From: Candidatus Xianfuyuplasma coldseepsis
Lineage (GTDB): Bacteria; Bacillota_I; Bacilli_A; Izemoplasmatales; Izemoplasmataceae
Reading direction: 5' to 3'
Length of the DNA stretch: 64,000 nt
NCBI RefSeq assembly: GCF_014023125.1
Contig: NZ_CP048914.1
Location: 896,698-960,697 of the forward strand
In this document: piece after piece, positions 36,475 to 46,656 of the stretch
How positions within the stretch are numbered: the stretch's first letter is position 1
Layout of the letters: the number at the start of each line of letters is the position of its first letter
Made by a program: the position numbers and the translations under genes
Notes under the pieces: generated by a model
What the model was told of the DNA's origin: nothing
The model's input: the letters and a program-made list of their open reading frames with translations, nothing else
Databases searched by the model: none

Positions 36475-36507
36475 AAAAACAACGTGTCTAGACACGTTGT
36501 TTTTTGT
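36474..36507. terminator. Bidirectional terminator, Cof gene and histidine kinase
   Basis: A perfect palindrome: AACAACGTGTC (36478-36488), TA, GACACGTTGTT (36491-36501), with A and T runs either side. Confidence 0.9.
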
Positions 36508-38290
36508 TCATATAGAAGTACGCTTTTACACCGTTTTTAACATTTGATATACCAAATTCGGCATCGTGAGCTTTCAGAATTTCGCTAACAAGGTACAGTC
36601 CAATACCGCTTCCTTTTGTTTTAATCGGGTTGGTTTCTTCCCTTGATATACGATAAAATGGCATCCAGATTTTCTCGATTTCTTCCGTCCGGATTGTAGT
36701 CCCGTAATTGGTTAATTCGAAGTACACTTTGTCTTTTCGTTCCGAGACTTCAAGGTACATCCTACCTCCAATAGGAGTGTATTTGATGGCGTTTGTCAAG
36801 AAATTTGATATGACACGTTTGATCAGCTTCTCGTCACCTTCTACAAAGACTTCATCTTGGACATTGATATCCAATTCAAGTTTATATTGACGAATGGCAT
36901 TCTCAAAATCATTAACAAAGAAACAAGCGGTTTTCGATAAATCAAATTCGGAAATCTCAAGTTGAGAGTTGGCGTCATCTAAGCGATAAATTTGTAACAT
37001 GTCTTGTATCATCATAGATGATTTATTAATCTCATCAAGGACATTTAGTAGTTCTTTTTGTTGTTCCTCATCGGGAATGATATCATCGAGGATTCCTTGA
37101 ATTGTAACTTGCATAATCATCAGTGGTGTTTTCAATTCATGAGAAATCGATGAAACCAATTGTTTTTTCAGGGAGACTTGCTTTGATTGATCTTCGTATA
37201 AACTCATTAACTCTGAATTTTTCCTGTTTAAAGTCTCCAGCGTGGTCCTTAAGTTTTTCGCAATTAGGTTGATACTGTTGGATAACGATTCATTTTCACG
37301 ATTATTATACTCATGCGCCTCAACATCAAAGTTTAACTGTGCAATTTGCCGGGCGACAAGCTCAATGTTTTGTATTGGTTTTGATATGATACTGGATAAA
37401 CGAAAACTCCAGATAAAGATAATGACAATAGCGGTTGCATATACGTAATAATTGTAGGAGTTCACAATATCAATCACATCGTTCGTATTAACGACCGGAA
37501 CAATTGTTACAATATAGTTCCACGTTTTTAAATTGTGAACAAACACTAATGTGTCGACAGAAGCTTCGGATGAACGATACCAAGAACCTTCAACACTACC
37601 ACTGGTATATTCGTAGTCTTTTAGATCAATTTCGCCCCCAACAATTCGGGCTACTTCATCACGAACAATAGGATTATTCTCAAATAAGTAGTTCAAGTTG
37701 TTTGGTTTACTGACATTGGTGATGGTTCCATTAACAGGTGTACAATCGACTTCAGCACACGTGATTTCACTATTATATAAAATGGTACTGCCTACCTCAA
37801 TGATATCCGCAGAATAGAACTCATCATTATAGGGATAAATGGTAACCGATAGTTGTAAATCTTCTGTATATTCAAAATCATTGTTTGGTACAAGGACCGT
37901 ATAAGAAAGTAATGTTGTATCATCCTGTATCGTAAACGTATAATCCGTTCCAGAGGATGTTAAAATTCGATACTGCCCACCGACAATGACACTATAGGCA
38001 TTGTTTTCAGAAGTGAAACGATACATTTCATCATAGTAATCGATGTCGTCTTGATTCATATTTTCAACATATTCAATCAAATCGGAATGGATTCGATCAA
38101 AATCTTGAGTCGTAAAGAAATTACGGAAAAATGCAACATTGAGAATCGACTGCAAAGCGAAGAAAGATAGGAAAATCAAACTGATAGTGATGATTAATTG
38201 CGTCGAAATGGAACGAGCTTTGAAGAGGCGAACAATGGTCTTCCATGTATTGCGGAACCAATCTTGTACGTTTGCACTAATCTGTTTCAT
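36488..38290 (-). CDS. Sensor histidine kinase with large extracellular domain
   Basis: 600 residues. Membrane segments near residues 32-53 and 285-305 enclose a ~230-residue extracellular domain with a Cys pair (ITCAEVDCTPVNG). A HAMP-like linker, HisKA with SSISHELKTPL, and HATPase with N box FLTNAIKY and G2 KGSGIGLYLV follow. ATG 38290 follows GAGG by several bases and overlaps the regulator gene by 14 bases; TTG 38302 is less likely. The signal is unknown. Confidence 0.9.
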   Translation of the reverse strand: MKQISANVQDWFRNTWKTIVRLFKARSISTQLIITISLIFLSFFALQSILNVAFFRNFFTTQDFDRIHSDLIEYVENMNQDDIDYYDEMYRFTSENNAYSVIVGGQYRILTSSGTDYTFTIQDDTTLLSYTVLVPNNDFEYTEDLQLSVTIYPYNDEFYSADIIEVGSTILYNSEITCAEVDCTPVNGTITNVSKPNNLNYLFENNPIVRDEVARIVGGEIDLKDYEYTSGSVEGSWYRSSEASVDTLVFVHNLKTWNYIVTIVPVVNTNDVIDIVNSYNYYVYATAIVIIFIWSFRLSSIISKPIQNIELVARQIAQLNFDVEAHEYNNRENESLSNSINLIAKNLRTTLETLNRKNSELMSLYEDQSKQVSLKKQLVSSISHELKTPLMIMQVTIQGILDDIIPDEEQQKELLNVLDEINKSSMMIQDMLQIYRLDDANSQLEISEFDLSKTACFFVNDFENAIRQYKLELDINVQDEVFVEGDEKLIKRVISNFLTNAIKYTPIGGRMYLEVSERKDKVYFELTNYGTTIRTEEIEKIWMPFYRISREETNPIKTKGSGIGLYLVSEILKAHDAEFGISNVKNGVKAYFYMNKKQRV

Positions 38291-38975
38291 GCGGTACCTC
38301 AAATCGATAACCTACACCAAATACCGTTTTAATATAGTTGGATCGATGTCCTAGGAATTTGCGTAGTTTTTTCACATAGGTATCGACAATTCGATCTTCG
38401 ACATAAACATCGATTCCCCATACTTCGTCAAGGAGAAGGTTTCGTGAACAGATTTTGCTTTCGTGTTCTAAGAAGTATTTAAGCAAATCAAACTCTGTTT
38501 TAGACAACTCTTTTTCGTCACCTTCGAGATACACCTTATGGGTATCTAAATCCATTTTGATACCACCAAGCTCAAGCATCCCACTTGTCTGTACTGAGAA
38601 ATCTTGATTTTGTAATCGCTCTAGTAAATTGCGTACTTTGGCCACAAGGATTTTAGGATTAAATGGTTTGGTAATATAGTCGTCCACTTTAAGCGAGTAT
38701 CCTTTTAAAATATCCTCTTCTTCAGATAAAGCACTCATCATAATAATGGGAACATTGGATGTTTCGCGAATTGTTTTTGCTACGTCCCAACCATTGACAT
38801 TGGGCATCATAATATCTAGGCAAACCAAATCCACACGATTTTGACTAAATAACTGTAGCCCTTTAAAACCATCCAAGGCACTTAAAACTGTGAATTTTTC
38901 CTTCAAAAAATAATTGGAGACAATGCGATTAATTGTCGGTTCATCTTCAATGATTAAGATTGTTGTGTGTTCCAT
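38277..38975 (-). CDS. OmpR/PhoB-family response regulator
   Basis: 232 residues. The receiver domain has the acidic pair IIEDEP, the phospho-acceptor Asp in LVCLDIMMPNVNGWD and the Lys in DDYITKPFN. The C-terminal winged helix ends KTVFGVGYRFEVPHE. Pairs with the kinase encoded by the overlapping downstream gene. TATAAT lies on the minus strand about 25 bases upstream, and a GTGAAT-N9-ATTCAC inverted repeat (39011-39031) is just beyond. Confidence 0.95.
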   Translation of the reverse strand: MEHTTILIIEDEPTINRIVSNYFLKEKFTVLSALDGFKGLQLFSQNRVDLVCLDIMMPNVNGWDVAKTIRETSNVPIIMMSALSEEEDILKGYSLKVDDYITKPFNPKILVAKVRNLLERLQNQDFSVQTSGMLELGGIKMDLDTHKVYLEGDEKELSKTEFDLLKYFLEHESKICSRNLLLDEVWGIDVYVEDRIVDTYVKKLRKFLGHRSNYIKTVFGVGYRFEVPHETD

Positions 38976-41024: not shown

Positions 41025-41711
41025 ATGATAGAGCAATTTCAACACATGCTTGAAGAATGTGGGATTCAACTTAGTCCAAAACAAGAGCAACAATTTGCAC
41101 ACTATTATAATCTGTTAATGGAATGGAACAGTAAACTAAATTTAACTTCCATAACAGAGAAGGAAGAAGTATATCTCAAGCATTTTTACGATAGTATTTG
41201 CCTCACAAAAGCAATTTCATTGTCAAACCAAACCATCTTAGATGTCGGCAGTGGTGCCGGCTTTCCAAGCATACCGTTAAAAATCATATTTCCCGACCTT
41301 CAGATAACCATTATTGATGCTCTACAAAAGCGTGTACGTTTTTTGCATGAATTAACCGATACGTTAGGAATATCAGTCGAACTTATTCATGGACGAGCTG
41401 AGGAATTTTCTCGTCGTGAAACATACGATATCGTTACCGCTAGAGCCGTATCTAATCTACGAATGCTTTGTGAATTATGCATACCATTTGTGAAACATCA
41501 CGGTGTATTTCTAGCAATGAAAGGTCCGGGGTATCAAGAGGAAGTCATCGATTCTAAGAACACGATACAGATACTTGGTGGAACTTTGGAGGATACCATT
41601 TTATATCATGTCAATCATTTTGAACGTTCGATTGTTGTTGTCCGAAAAACCGCTACAACTCCTACAAAATACCCCAGAAGATACAATAAAATTAAGTCAA
41701 AACCTCTATAG
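41025..41711 (+). CDS. rsmG: 16S rRNA (guanine527-N7)-methyltransferase
   Basis: 228 residues. SAM loop ILDVGSGAGFPSIPLKI, followed by VTARAVSNL and FLAMKGP in the catalytic region. Methylates G527 in 16S rRNA. Its position after mnmG and close to parAB is the common origin-proximal order. Confidence 0.97.
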   Translation: MIEQFQHMLEECGIQLSPKQEQQFAHYYNLLMEWNSKLNLTSITEKEEVYLKHFYDSICLTKAISLSNQTILDVGSGAGFPSIPLKIIFPDLQITIIDALQKRVRFLHELTDTLGISVELIHGRAEEFSRRETYDIVTARAVSNLRMLCELCIPFVKHHGVFLAMKGPGYQEEVIDSKNTIQILGGTLEDTILYHVNHFERSIVVVRKTATTPTKYPRRYNKIKSKPL

Positions 41712-41723
41712 GATGTGTATTCT

Positions 41724-42935
41724 ATGAGACAGTATAATCATAAATACAATTTTAAGCAGCTAGAACCGTATAAAGAGATTCTAGAACTGCAACACATTCG
41801 AATTAAAACACTGATCGTTAACATTTTAAACGTCGTGTTTGCTTTTGTTGTGTTGTATTTTTTTATTCGTCTACAAGTAGAAACAATTCAGATTCTACAA
41901 GTGATGTTCATGTTTGGATTATTACTACTAATCAATATTTACTTCATGTCGTTGAACCACGATCTTTATAATAATCTAAAGCTCGCAATGTATACGAATG
42001 CCTTAGGAGAATTTATCATTGCATTAACCCTTATTTTTATGTTTCAAACACCCAGTATATTTACTTCGTTATTCTTAGCCTATGCAATTACCTCCATATA
42101 TCAAGACTATAAAGTTATGTTCATCAGTAATGGTGCCTTATTTGTCAGTGGGATATTGCTAGCCATTAACTATCAAGTAATCTTCTCCATTCCGAATGTG
42201 GATGCGATTCAGAACCTATATGTTGTAGTCTTTTTGTTACTTTTTGTATTATTACTAACATTATCATCATACATCTTGATTAAACGAAAATCATTTTTCT
42301 ATAATCATTTAGCAAAAATAAAAGAATCCGAAGTGCGAAACATGGATTTATTAATGGAAATTCAAACGATTCGAACTAGTCATGAAATGGATGTTGATGC
42401 CTATTATAAATCTCTGGATACTTTTACCAAAGAATTATCCAAAAAGATAGGGATTGAAAATGTCTTTGGACGTAAAATTCAATTACTTAAAGATATGAAA
42501 AAAGAACCAACTACGAGCTTACTTGAAAAGTATCCTGAATACACTCTAGAGCAGCTCAATGAGTTATCAAACTTAGAGTTATCCATCCATCATAAAATGA
42601 GAAATATCGGGCTAAAAGCAAGTAAAACGAAAGATATTGATGTAAATCGCAAAGAAATTTTTTCCGAAAGTCAGTTCAAGTCATTTCGCCATTTCAATGA
42701 TGATACCTATGTGAAAATTATTTCATTTGTTGTGTTTTATGTGATGCTGCGAATGGACAAAATATACTTATCGGAGTTAAGCCAAGAAGATGTAGTGGAC
42801 ATCTTATTTAACTCGGAATATTATTATTTAATTGATGAAGACGTACTTCGTGTATTTAAGGAGAACAGCGAAGTGTTCGAAATGATTATACAAGACGTAT
42901 TGAAGGATGCCTGGGGCCATGAAAAACATATTTGA
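41724..42935 (+). CDS. Unknown membrane protein with helical cytosolic tail (paralogue 1)
   Basis: 403 residues, not recognised. About six hydrophobic segments in residues 30-205 are followed by a basic turn (IKRKSFFYNH) and a ~200-residue soluble helical domain. ATG 41724 is preferred to GTG 41715. Its tail (FNDDTYVKIISFVVFYVMLR ... LIDEDVLRVFKENSEVF) lines up with the tail of the next gene, so the two are paralogues with the same layout. The helical domain could be a degenerate signalling domain, but no catalytic motif is seen. It overlaps the next gene. Confidence 0.75.
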   Translation: MRQYNHKYNFKQLEPYKEILELQHIRIKTLIVNILNVVFAFVVLYFFIRLQVETIQILQVMFMFGLLLLINIYFMSLNHDLYNNLKLAMYTNALGEFIIALTLIFMFQTPSIFTSLFLAYAITSIYQDYKVMFISNGALFVSGILLAINYQVIFSIPNVDAIQNLYVVVFLLLFVLLLTLSSYILIKRKSFFYNHLAKIKESEVRNMDLLMEIQTIRTSHEMDVDAYYKSLDTFTKELSKKIGIENVFGRKIQLLKDMKKEPTTSLLEKYPEYTLEQLNELSNLELSIHHKMRNIGLKASKTKDIDVNRKEIFSESQFKSFRHFNDDTYVKIISFVVFYVMLRMDKIYLSELSQEDVVDILFNSEYYYLIDEDVLRVFKENSEVFEMIIQDVLKDAWGHEKHI

Positions 42936-44100
42936 ACGAATTCAAAGTAGTGAATTCCTTACCTTTAGTGAAGTTCTCCGCCTAAAAGTAGCTATCGTAA
43001 CAATCTTTGTTTCCGTCTTTATTGTCCTTACAATTCCACTATCATCATTTAATGATTTCTCAATCGATATCAATGTATTTGTACCGATGGCACTTGCCTT
43101 ATTAATTGTTTTAACATTGTTGATGATGATTATAAACTTCAATCGATTTTCGATGCATACATCAATTATTACAATTGCGATACTTACCCTGTTCTATTCA
43201 CAAGGATCAAACCACTTTTACGGATACATCATGTTCTTCGTGTTCTTAACCATTGTTATTTTTTACCAAGATATTCTTGCATATTTGTTTTATGGAGGCA
43301 TCATCACAGGTGTTGGTGTATACTATATCTTCGATAAAGGTGTCTCGATTATTGGAACAAACTCTATTGATACCAATGTATCGATGATGACGTATCTTGT
43401 TGTCTTGATTGGATTCTATATCATTTTCTTAATTCAATTTCTGATATCAGATAATATCTATGAGAAAATGAATAATGAGTGGGTTCGAATGAAAAAAATC
43501 TTGGAAAAATACCAAGAGTTTAGTATTCGCCATATTACGGAAATGGAAGAGGAAAATGACCTAACACCCGTTTGGAGAGAAACTAAATTCCAACGCACGG
43601 TACATGAATTAAGTGTGTTTATTAACGAATTCTTTGAAGCTGACGCCCATAAAATATCTGAGGTTATTGAGTTCTATTTCTTCTTACATTCTCAAGAAGT
43701 GGAGGAAGTTATTGCAAATGAAAATGCATCAATCATCGCGCGCCGTTATGCCGTTCAATTCGAAAAATATCTTATCAATCGTGAGGGCGAATTAAATGCG
43801 ATTTTATTTGAAATAGCAAGCCTGTATAAACCGACCCCTAATTTCACAGATGACCGGTATAAATATAATCTAAATGAACTATTTCACGATCGTATTGATA
43901 AGTTATTATCGCTCGCTATTTTATACCATTTCTTAAAAACTGAGGTCACACAATTGGATAAATGGGGTAACATAAAAGATACCCTAACTCATGAAGAAAT
44001 AACGGAACTTTTCAAATCGAAAGAATATCGTGAGTTTATACCCTATGAGTTGGTAAACTTCTATTTGGATAACGAGGACTTATTTAGGACGTTGTTATAA
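42919..44100 (+). CDS. Unknown membrane protein with helical cytosolic tail (paralogue 2)
   Basis: 393 residues from ATG 42919 (ATG 42907 is an alternative 4 codons earlier). Six hydrophobic segments (about residues 24-185) then a ~200-residue helical domain ending RIDKLLSLAILYHFLKTEV ... YLDNEDLFRTLL, similar in order and spacing to paralogue 1. No signal peptide, metal site or known domain recognised. Sits just before the DnaA-box-like sites and parA, an uncommon place for a membrane-protein pair. Confidence 0.72.
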   Translation: MKNIFERIQSSEFLTFSEVLRLKVAIVTIFVSVFIVLTIPLSSFNDFSIDINVFVPMALALLIVLTLLMMIINFNRFSMHTSIITIAILTLFYSQGSNHFYGYIMFFVFLTIVIFYQDILAYLFYGGIITGVGVYYIFDKGVSIIGTNSIDTNVSMMTYLVVLIGFYIIFLIQFLISDNIYEKMNNEWVRMKKILEKYQEFSIRHITEMEEENDLTPVWRETKFQRTVHELSVFINEFFEADAHKISEVIEFYFFLHSQEVEEVIANENASIIARRYAVQFEKYLINREGELNAILFEIASLYKPTPNFTDDRYKYNLNELFHDRIDKLLSLAILYHFLKTEVTQLDKWGNIKDTLTHEEITELFKSKEYREFIPYELVNFYLDNEDLFRTLL

Positions 44101-44211: not shown

Positions 44212-44991
44212 ATGGGGAAAATATTATCTATCAGTAATCAAAAAGGTGGCGTTGGGAAAACAACCACGAGTGTTAACCTTGCCAGTTCATTATCGTATCT
44301 GGGGAAGAGCGTATTATTGGTTGATGTCGATCATCAAGCAAATGCGACAACGTACATGGGGATTAACCGCGCCAATCTTGATTTTTCGGTTGCTGATATT
44401 TTTATGGAACGATTGTCAATTCACGATGTCATTGTAAAAGTTCCATCGGTTGATGTTGACATCATTCCCGCGCGTTATGAGCTAGGACACATTGAGTCCC
44501 ATCTAATCAGTCATGATAATAAGGATTTTATTTTAGCGAATGCTTTAGAAGAAGTGCGAGATAATTATGACTATATTATTATTGATTGCCCACCTTCGTT
44601 GGGTATCGTTACGATTAACGCTTTAACTGCATCGGATAGTGTTTTAATTCCTGTTCAATGTGAGTTTTTAGCATTGGATGGTTTAACGCAGTTACTAAAC
44701 ACTATTCGTGTTATCCAAAATAAACAGAAGTACAATCATAAAACCTTGACAATTGAAGGAGTATTACTAACCATGCTTGATACTCGTAGCAATATTGGAT
44801 ATGAAGTTATCAATGAAGTTCGTACATATTTTAAGGAAAAAGTATTTAAAACAATTATTCCTCGAAATGTCAAGTGCTCCGTAGCACCAAGTCACGGATT
44901 ACCTGTTACGGAATTTTCGCCTCGTAGTAAAGGATCCATTAGTTACCAAAATCTAGCGAAAGAGATGGTGGCTATGAATGAAAGATTCTAA
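44212..44991 (+). CDS. parA: Chromosome-partitioning ATPase ParA/Soj
   Basis: 259 residues from ATG 44212 (AGAGGTGAAA upstream). Deviant Walker A SNQKGGVGKTTTSVNLA, Walker B YIIIDCPPSLG. With ParB it positions newly replicated origins. A longer frame from 44158 runs through the promoter region and lacks a ribosome site. Overlaps parB by 14 bases. Confidence 0.97.
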   Translation: MGKILSISNQKGGVGKTTTSVNLASSLSYLGKSVLLVDVDHQANATTYMGINRANLDFSVADIFMERLSIHDVIVKVPSVDVDIIPARYELGHIESHLISHDNKDFILANALEEVRDNYDYIIIDCPPSLGIVTINALTASDSVLIPVQCEFLALDGLTQLLNTIRVIQNKQKYNHKTLTIEGVLLTMLDTRSNIGYEVINEVRTYFKEKVFKTIIPRNVKCSVAPSHGLPVTEFSPRSKGSISYQNLAKEMVAMNERF

Positions 44992-45820
44992 AGTAGAACT
45001 TGGTAGAAGCTTTAAGGATTTAATGGAAGAAAATCAACAAGAGTACTCTGATCGCGAAGAGGTTCAGGACATTGATATTTCTCTCATCGTTCCGAACCCC
45101 AATCAACCGCGATCTATTTTTGATACAACAAGCTTACAAGAGTTGGCAAACTCCATAAAAGAACACGGTGTGTTTCAACCGGTTATTTTAAAACCCGCCG
45201 GAACGGGTTATATGATTGTAGCTGGAGAACGACGCGTAAAAGCGGCCAAACTAGCCGGTCTAACATATGTTCCGTCGATTATTCGAGATTACAATTCAAT
45301 TTACTTATCCGAACTAGCAATTCTTGAGAACTTACAGCGTGAAGATCTAACCCCAATTGAAGAGGCAATAGCACTTCAAAAAGCATTGTTTCAATTAGGA
45401 GTAACACATGCTGAACTTGGAAAGAAAATAGGGAAAAGCAGAGTGTATGTCACAAACATAATTGGGTTATTAAATTTACCTGCAACGGTAATTCAAAGCG
45501 TTAATTATGGTCATATAAAAATGGGACACGCAAGAGCGTTAAGTAAAGTAAAAGACCAGCGTTTATGTCTTGATCTACACGATCGAATTATTGAAGAGAA
45601 ATTTACTGTACGGGACGTAGAGAGAATCATTCGTAACATTCATTCGAAAAAAATCTCAGTTCCGAACAAGGTTATAAAAAATCGTCGTCAATATTTGGAA
45701 AATATTATTGATGATTCTATCAAATTTACACTCGGTAAAGCACAACTGACATTTCGATTTGACACAGAAGAAGAATTGAATAAAATTATCGATCTATTAA
45801 ATGGAGGTAGCAAACAATGA
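44978..45820 (+). CDS. parB: ParB/Spo0J-family partition protein
   Basis: 280 residues. ParB N-terminal CTP/DNA region IVPNPNQPRSIFD and GERRVKAAKLAG, the ENLQREDLTPIEEA box, the HTH (LGKKIGKSRVYVTNIIGLL) and C-terminal dimer domain. No parS site was found by eye in the window. Noc is the alternative, but adjacency to parA favours ParB. Its stop overlaps the mscS start as ATGA. Confidence 0.95.
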   Translation: MKDSKVELGRSFKDLMEENQQEYSDREEVQDIDISLIVPNPNQPRSIFDTTSLQELANSIKEHGVFQPVILKPAGTGYMIVAGERRVKAAKLAGLTYVPSIIRDYNSIYLSELAILENLQREDLTPIEEAIALQKALFQLGVTHAELGKKIGKSRVYVTNIIGLLNLPATVIQSVNYGHIKMGHARALSKVKDQRLCLDLHDRIIEEKFTVRDVERIIRNIHSKKISVPNKVIKNRRQYLENIIDDSIKFTLGKAQLTFRFDTEEELNKIIDLLNGGSKQ

Positions 45821-46656
45821 ATGGTATTGGTGAAGTAATATATAATATTTTTGTAAACAACTTAAATATACCTGAATCATTGAGTGAATTTGTCATCATA
45901 GGTTTTAGTATTGTAACTTGGTTATTATTAGGATTTATTATTAATCGAGTATCAAAACCTGTTATTAATAAACTGTTACGTATTGAAAAAAAAGGGGCTC
46001 GAGCAAAGACTGTAGCAAATCTGTTATGGAGTGTAACAAGATATTTGGTATGGTTTATTGTTCTAATGCTTATTTTCTCTAGTTTGGGTGTTGATTTAAC
46101 GCCATTTATTGCATCAGCAGGTGTTGTTGGTCTAGCAATTGGTTTTGGAGCACAGGAAATAGTACGCGATTTTATGAGCGGTTTCTTTATCATTTTTGAT
46201 GGTGAATTCCAAGTAGGAGAAGTCATTGAAGTAAAAGGTTTCAAAGGTACTGTAATTATGATTGGATTACGAACAACAGTTATTGAAAATTGGAAAGGTG
46301 AACGGAAAATCATCAACAATGGAAACATTGATAGTGTTATAAACTTCTCTAGAAATCAAAGTATAGCTGTTGTCGATTTTGGTGTGGCATATGATACAGA
46401 TCTTCAAAAACTAACTGAAATCATGCCTGCATTTCTTGAGCAAGAAGATGAACGTTATGGTGATATTGTAGAAATGCCTAAGTTCTTAGGAGTTACAGAA
46501 TTAGCAGATTCAAGTATTAATATGAGAATTATAGCTAAAACAGAAGTGATGAAACATTTTCAAGTAGAACGAGATATTCGTAAAGACTTAGTTATGTATT
46601 TTTCTGAAAATGAAATTGAAATACCATTCCCACAGGTGGTAGTGCACAATGCATAA
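45817..46656 (+). CDS. mscS: MscS-type small mechanosensitive channel
   Basis: 279 residues. Three membrane segments; TM3 and following loop are IASAGVVGLAIGFGAQEIVR, DFMSGFFIIFDGEFQVGE, typical of MscS, then the beta domain and cytosolic cage. It releases solutes on hypo-osmotic shock. Close relatives follow parB in several Bacillota. GGAGGTAG lies 5-8 nt before ATG 45817. Confidence 0.94.
   Translation: MNGIGEVIYNIFVNNLNIPESLSEFVIIGFSIVTWLLLGFIINRVSKPVINKLLRIEKKGARAKTVANLLWSVTRYLVWFIVLMLIFSSLGVDLTPFIASAGVVGLAIGFGAQEIVRDFMSGFFIIFDGEFQVGEVIEVKGFKGTVIMIGLRTTVIENWKGERKIINNGNIDSVINFSRNQSIAVVDFGVAYDTDLQKLTEIMPAFLEQEDERYGDIVEMPKFLGVTELADSSINMRIIAKTEVMKHFQVERDIRKDLVMYFSENEIEIPFPQVVVHNA

Follow-up and report, generated by a model that had tools for sequence, protein, structure and literature searches.

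Paralogous six-transmembrane proteins with degenerate HD-GYP-like domains occupy a conserved place beside parAB in Izemoplasmatales

Chromosome positioning and segregation in wall-less bacteria are poorly understood. The genome of Xianfuyuplasma coldseepsis zrk13, the first Izemoplasma to be cultured (PMC8397711), is a single contig of 1,958,905 bp, and its partition locus raises a specific question: what do the two genes between rsmG and parA, here referred to as X and Y, encode, and why are they there? We analysed a 64-kb stretch of this genome (hereafter the window, in which all positions below are given unless stated otherwise). On the forward strand, rsmG (41025..41711; TIGR00138, 178 bits) is directly followed by X (41724..42935; 403 residues, best read from the ATG at 41724) and Y (42919..44100; 393 residues, best read from the ATG at 42919), and these are followed by parA (soj; 44212..44991) and parB (spo0J; 44978..45820), which encodes the sole ParB/Noc-type protein found in the genome. 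A first-pass annotation, made from the sequence alone, had described X and Y as co-translated paralogues with six N-terminal membrane spans and a helical cytosolic domain, and had taken their position as a hint of a link to chromosome or cell-cycle function. We found no publications describing the pair in the open-access literature.

Both open reading frames are intact in the window, where X starts 12 nt past the rsmG stop codon and overlaps Y by 17 nt. Among 61 related genomes, X is present in 48 and Y in 48, nearly always in one copy each (X is split over contigs in two genomes), and chance open reading frames are ruled out because the frames stay open, in single copy, in 48 of these relatives. 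The named relatives are Candidatus Izemoplasma/Izimaplasma or unclassified Tenericutes, Mollicutes and Bacillota bins, one archaeal record excepted; the latter, a contig in a Woesearchaeota archaeon bin (L135), carries an X–Y pair like that of Izemoplasmatales and is most likely mis-binned. Tight coupling of X and Y is conserved, as 22 of 41 homologous X–Y junctions show a 4-nt overlap of the ATGA type and most of the others overlap by 1–29 nt, which supports the proposed co-translation of the pair.

The position of the pair is fixed as well. In the 41 loci examined, including that in the window, rsmG lies directly upstream of X wherever this can be tested (39 of 39), with mnmG before rsmG, and parA lies downstream of Y in 39 of 40 testable loci. 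The order mnmG–rsmG–X–Y–parA–parB is shared by nearly all testable loci from two families and approximately 25 genera. A variable position in relatives, which the first-pass annotation had named as an argument against its proposal, was looked for across the loci and was not seen. In one genome (G018; L075, 8619–8831), Y is followed by parB, and the assembly contains no ParA orthologue; the ParB protein retained there without ParA has an acidic C-terminal extension. In two other genomes (G021 and G052), X and Y were found without parB, but the contig carrying them is short in both assemblies.

X and Y are missing from 13 of the 61 genomes, seven of which are members of f2, a sister family within the order. 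In this family, rsmG was found in five of the seven genomes, and none has X, Y, parA or parB; the contig runs past rsmG into unrelated genes in two cases (L194 and L196) and ends soon after rsmG in a third (L193). The remaining absences are uninformative, as the contig stops at rsmG or shortly beyond it in two genomes (G014 and G011) and rsmG itself is unassembled in the others. X and Y thus share the fate of parAB and not that of rsmG, because f2 keeps mnmG–rsmG but lacks X, Y, parA and parB. The suggested link to chromosome function thereby gains weight, whereas the role in partition itself is one that we infer from location and co-loss. Two points temper this reading: a stable housekeeping region can keep X and Y beside parAB without any interaction, and the joint absence in f2 may reflect a single deletion event. 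The same comparison bears on whether X and Y belong functionally with rsmG and mnmG in RNA modification, or constitute a general membrane sensor that simply shares a transcript with housekeeping genes. The 12-nt spacing in the window and the constant presence of rsmG upstream are what such an association would produce, but f2 keeps mnmG–rsmG without X, Y and parAB, and a six-transmembrane protein with a dead HD-GYP domain (see below) has no obvious part in RNA modification, so that we consider this explanation highly improbable. As a whole, f2 seems to be without chromosomal ParA and ParB, with unrelated genes following mnmG–rsmG.

BLASTP detected no similarity between X and Y. Profile–profile comparison aligned them over 351 columns including the transmembrane region (E = 2.7e-14; a second comparison gave E = 5e-15), and their paralogy, initially proposed from an alignment of the C-terminal ~70 residues that proved to be real, therefore extends over the full length. 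An initial scan of genome contigs with X alone found nothing. A class-wide search identified a single homologue, Z (~412 residues), in f10, another family of the class, and the comparisons with Z are the best profile pairs (X–Z, E = 2.4e-21; Y–Z, E = 1.2e-18). Z is homologous to X and to Y along its full length and occupies the same locus, but it is one gene instead of two and has noc beside it. A second relative, W (543 residues), is encoded in the fmt–W–metK region of the same genome as X and Y (L189:5688–7316; G000:C1, ~173.7–175.3 kb). In a sample of 395 genomes from the class, 110 carry a single copy of W, with carriers in f2 as well; it belongs to no NCBIfam family, its orthologues have only sub-cut-off matches to Pfam HD_5, and it is a core protein, so far undescribed, that is widespread in these lineages. 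Like X and Y, W combines six transmembrane helices with a degenerate HD-GYP domain, and its profile matches those of X, Y and Z including the transmembrane region; unlike them, it has an N-terminal extension, another locus and a better preserved domain, and is kept in f2.

A tree of X, Y, Z and W contains four clean clades with full support and leaves the branching order among them unresolved. The X clade and the Y clade each include families f1 and f3, so the X/Y split is older than these families. Most simply, X and Y would have arisen by in-place duplication of a Z-like single gene, the X/Y lineage being without noc, a view that draws on the shared locus and on the profile scores of X–Z and Y–Z, not on the tree. 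Only three families of the sampled class yielded matches to X, Y and Z, and ParABS in general therefore does not need these proteins. Within the class there exists a broad family of six-transmembrane degenerate HD-GYP proteins, and X, Y, Z and W form an unnamed family that is absent from Pfam and NCBIfam.

What fold the cytosolic domains adopt was not evident from family searches: X and Y match no family in Pfam, NCBIfam or PADLOC, confirming for these databases that no domain is recognized. Matches to DUF6057 and to the DMPK coiled coil lie far below cut-off and were rejected. Profile searches of solved structures with the X and Y sequences gave no relevant match, and W matched solved HD-GYP structures by sequence (4mcw, E = 2.3e-9; 4r8z, E = 6e-6). 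Using hhalign against an HD-GYP alignment, we obtained E = 6e-39 for the W domain, 2.8e-8 for X, 2.8e-7 for Z and a weak direct value of 0.004 for Y, whereas none of the controls (column-reversed and shuffled profiles, ParA and ParB) fell below E = 0.01. The profiles of all three proteins are linked to W (X–W, E = 1.9e-14; Y–W, E = 6.5e-9; Z–W, E = 6.6e-17), and the last 80 residues of the X profile match the C termini of true HD-GYP proteins and of six-transmembrane proteins of 425–543 residues from related genomes. The degenerate HD-GYP-like domain spans residues 224–396 of X (42393..42911, forward strand), as placed by hhalign and the ligand map, and residues 222–392 of Y (43582..44094, forward strand), the latter aligning with the W domain at E = 2.3e-5 and with the X domain at E = 5e-8. 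Because its direct similarity is weak, the assignment of Y rests on W, X and Z. The assignment of the cytosolic domains of X and Y as degenerate HD-GYP domains, which would have the fold of a c-di-GMP phosphodiesterase, is well supported by these comparisons. A degenerate HD domain or a histidine-kinase-like fold had been put forward as candidates for the helical domain; the former was found, in its HD-GYP-like form, and the latter was rejected, as no match supported it.

The cytosolic domains of X, Y and Z are homologous to those of HD-GYP phosphodiesterases (PF13487 HD_5; PmGH, 4mcw; PA4781, 4r8z), X and Z by direct comparison and Y by way of W, but in X and Y the HD pair, further histidine ligands, HHE and GYP are largely gone, and Pfam finds no match. 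In X, whose ligand columns, like those of Y, come from a remote alignment in which single positions may shift by a few residues, the histidine positions of HD, H3 and HHE are mostly occupied by K/R, D/A/K, and L and K/R, respectively, and no metal-binding histidine is kept. Of the metal-binding ligands, Y retains just His257 (43687..43689, forward strand), which aligns with the histidine of the HD motif and is kept in 41 of 41 Y sequences, the aspartate being mostly replaced. The aspartate of VAD is lost in both proteins, and the GYP-aligned columns mostly read Q/H-F-K in X and R-Y-E/D in Y. W keeps the histidine of HD, the first histidine and the glutamate of HHE, and the Y/R of RPYR, and mostly lacks the aspartate of HD, H3, the second histidine of HHE and GYP. 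These patterns show a stepwise erosion of the ligands from W through Y to X, and W is the less eroded link between X, Y and Z and true HD-GYP proteins. Because the alignments contain no conserved HD or HHE...GYP motif in either the X or the Y family, catalysis by the HD-GYP mechanism is very unlikely.

AlphaFold2 models of X (pLDDT 77.5, pTM 0.54) and Y (pLDDT 82.7, pTM 0.53) bear out the described architecture of six N-terminal membrane spans and a helical C-terminal domain. The predicted six-transmembrane module comprises residues 13–185 of X (41760..42278, forward strand), with hydrophobic helices at 13–49, 54–76, 84–107, 110–126, 129–149 and from 161 onwards, and residues 16–176 of Y (42964..43446, forward strand), with helices at 16–44, 49–71, 75–96, 99–115, 119–144 and from 152 onwards. 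A plain hydropathy scan counts just five clear N-terminal segments in each protein because TM3, TM4 and TM5 are short and close-packed. In both models TM6 extends into a long stalk that leads into the all-helical domain, and six transmembrane helices with TM6 continuing as a signalling helix are the layout of 6-TM cyclase-type receptors. Charge suggests that both termini face the cytosol. A YQD motif common to X, Y and W in the alignments lies at residues 126–128 of X (42099..42107, forward strand), in the predicted cytosolic TM4–TM5 turn, and at residues 116–118 of Y (43264..43272, forward strand), where Y116 and Q117 are invariant in 48 sequences.

Foldseek searches with the whole models of X and Y returned no significant match. 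The top structural match of the six-transmembrane part of the X model is ImcA (8wcn; Z-score 13.1, 3.5 Å, 192 residues aligned), and AC9 (9u3q; Z-score 12.9) and AC8 (8buz; Z-score 12.2) also match, the next unrelated entry having a Z-score of 9.1. For the Y model, ImcA and Rv1625c/Cya are listed first, with Z-scores of 9.9–10.7 and poor rmsd. A match of the X model to the HD-GYP structure 4mcw in the VIA structural comparison (Z-score 5.4, 181 residues) has an rmsd of 16 Å and was not counted as evidence. ImcA is a six-TM diguanylate cyclase whose transmembrane region is needed for partner binding (PMC10904736), and the 6-TM domains of adenylyl cyclases have been reported to function as receptors (PMC4821796, PMC11606603). 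In the cyclases of this type (Pseudomonas aeruginosa ImcA, Mycobacterium tuberculosis Rv1625c/Cya and mammalian AC8 and AC9), as in the X and Y models, the last of six transmembrane helices continues as a signalling helix; they are the best structural matches of X and weaker ones of Y. X and Y, however, have neither a GGDEF nor a class III cyclase domain and show no detected similarity in sequence to these cyclases, and the likeness may be a common bundle arrangement. The resemblance of the modelled membrane part to cyclase membrane domains is thus suggestive, as such Z-scores can be generic for helical bundles.

Seven HD-GYP domains score above cut-off in this 1.96-Mb wall-less genome, which suggests active cyclic-dinucleotide signalling. 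X and Y might accordingly act as receptors for cyclic dinucleotides or, as dead enzymes, control the active HD-GYP proteins of this genome, with a historical parAB neighbourhood and an output elsewhere. Their degenerate HD-GYP domains, the seven intact HD-GYP proteins, the cyclase-like membrane part and the location of the related W far from parAB could all be accommodated in this way. We nevertheless consider it unlikely, since f2 has retained W but has neither X and Y nor parAB, and since with the catalytic and GYP residues gone nucleotide binding is not indicated.

The locus of f10 brings in another membrane-associated partition protein. All eight genomes inspected in this family have the order mnmG–rsmG–Z–(ParB-like)–parA–parB, and of the ParB-like genes before parA three were tested, each of which exceeds the TIGR04285 cut-off for Noc; genomes with X and Y have a single ParB-type protein and no Noc. 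Noc is a DNA–membrane linker that recruits DNA to the membrane (PMC4331003, PMC8429893). It resembles the pair in occupying the slot before parA in relatives and in acting at the membrane, but it is a soluble CTPase and DNA-binder of the ParB family with no homology to X or Y. X and Y could have functionally replaced Noc, binding ParB–DNA complexes and tethering the origin region to the membrane: where f10 has Z and Noc, X/Y genomes have two genes for Z, no Noc, and Y in the slot of Noc. However, X and Y lack the ParB_N CTPase and ParB HTH domains of the Noc/ParB family (no Pfam match; hhalign to ParB, E = 0.1–0.5) and have no recognized DNA-binding domain, the absence of noc and the duplication of Z may be unrelated events, and there is one such contrast only; we regard a replacement as quite unlikely. 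In its most specific form, in which a heterodimer of dead HD-GYP proteins took over from Noc in linking ParB-bound origin DNA to the membrane in the wall-less Izemoplasmatales, it is decidedly unlikely, but, if true, it would mean that a second-messenger enzyme fold was recruited as a chromosome–membrane tether.

The reading that we prefer, to which we assign a probability of about 0.5, is that X and Y form a membrane-embedded, catalytically dead HD-GYP heterodimer that serves as a scaffold or sensor for ParABS. The two proteins would be halves of one integral-membrane, dead signalling-type protein dedicated to the partition locus, each half combining a six-transmembrane domain and a long signalling helix with an HD-GYP fold that lacks the metal centre. 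Most likely, the halves would pair as an X–Y heterodimer, in the manner of HD-GYP and 6-TM cyclase proteins, and the dead domains would offer a protein docking surface instead of an enzyme. Such a complex would anchor or control ParB (or ParA) together with the origin region at the membrane, perhaps in response to a membrane or ligand signal sensed by the six-transmembrane domain; its likely output would be an origin held at the membrane, or a membrane state reported to the partition system. ParB would be the most economical partner, because X and Y persist in one genome that has no parA and are missing where parB is missing; G018, which keeps X, Y and parB without parA, makes a strict ParA partner improbable.

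Degenerate, membrane-anchored HD-GYP proteins are of a known kind, and here they stand in a place, beside parAB, that is both conserved and unexpected. That the pair is fixed in the parAB cluster throughout an order, in a group of wall-less deep-sea bacteria and relatives of these, suggests that the chromosome-partition machinery has a membrane component not yet described, and the pair would be a candidate for the membrane side of segregation. It would also be a clear example of a signalling enzyme reused for a structural role, and the unnamed family of X, Y, Z and W is testable with genes from the cultured strain.

Some further features of the neighbourhood deserve mention. No canonical parS (TGTTTCACGTGAAACA, with up to three mismatches) was found in the 64-kb window, nor any exact copy in the loci; ParB being intact, parS may have diverged in this order or be located elsewhere, and its position offers no guidance on the role of the pair. 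Directly 3′ of parB and overlapping it lies a gene for an MscS-type channel (45817–46656), which is kept in close relatives and in some others, not in all. Upstream of mnmG is a divergent histidine kinase/response regulator pair (36488–38975), found in the same place even in f2.
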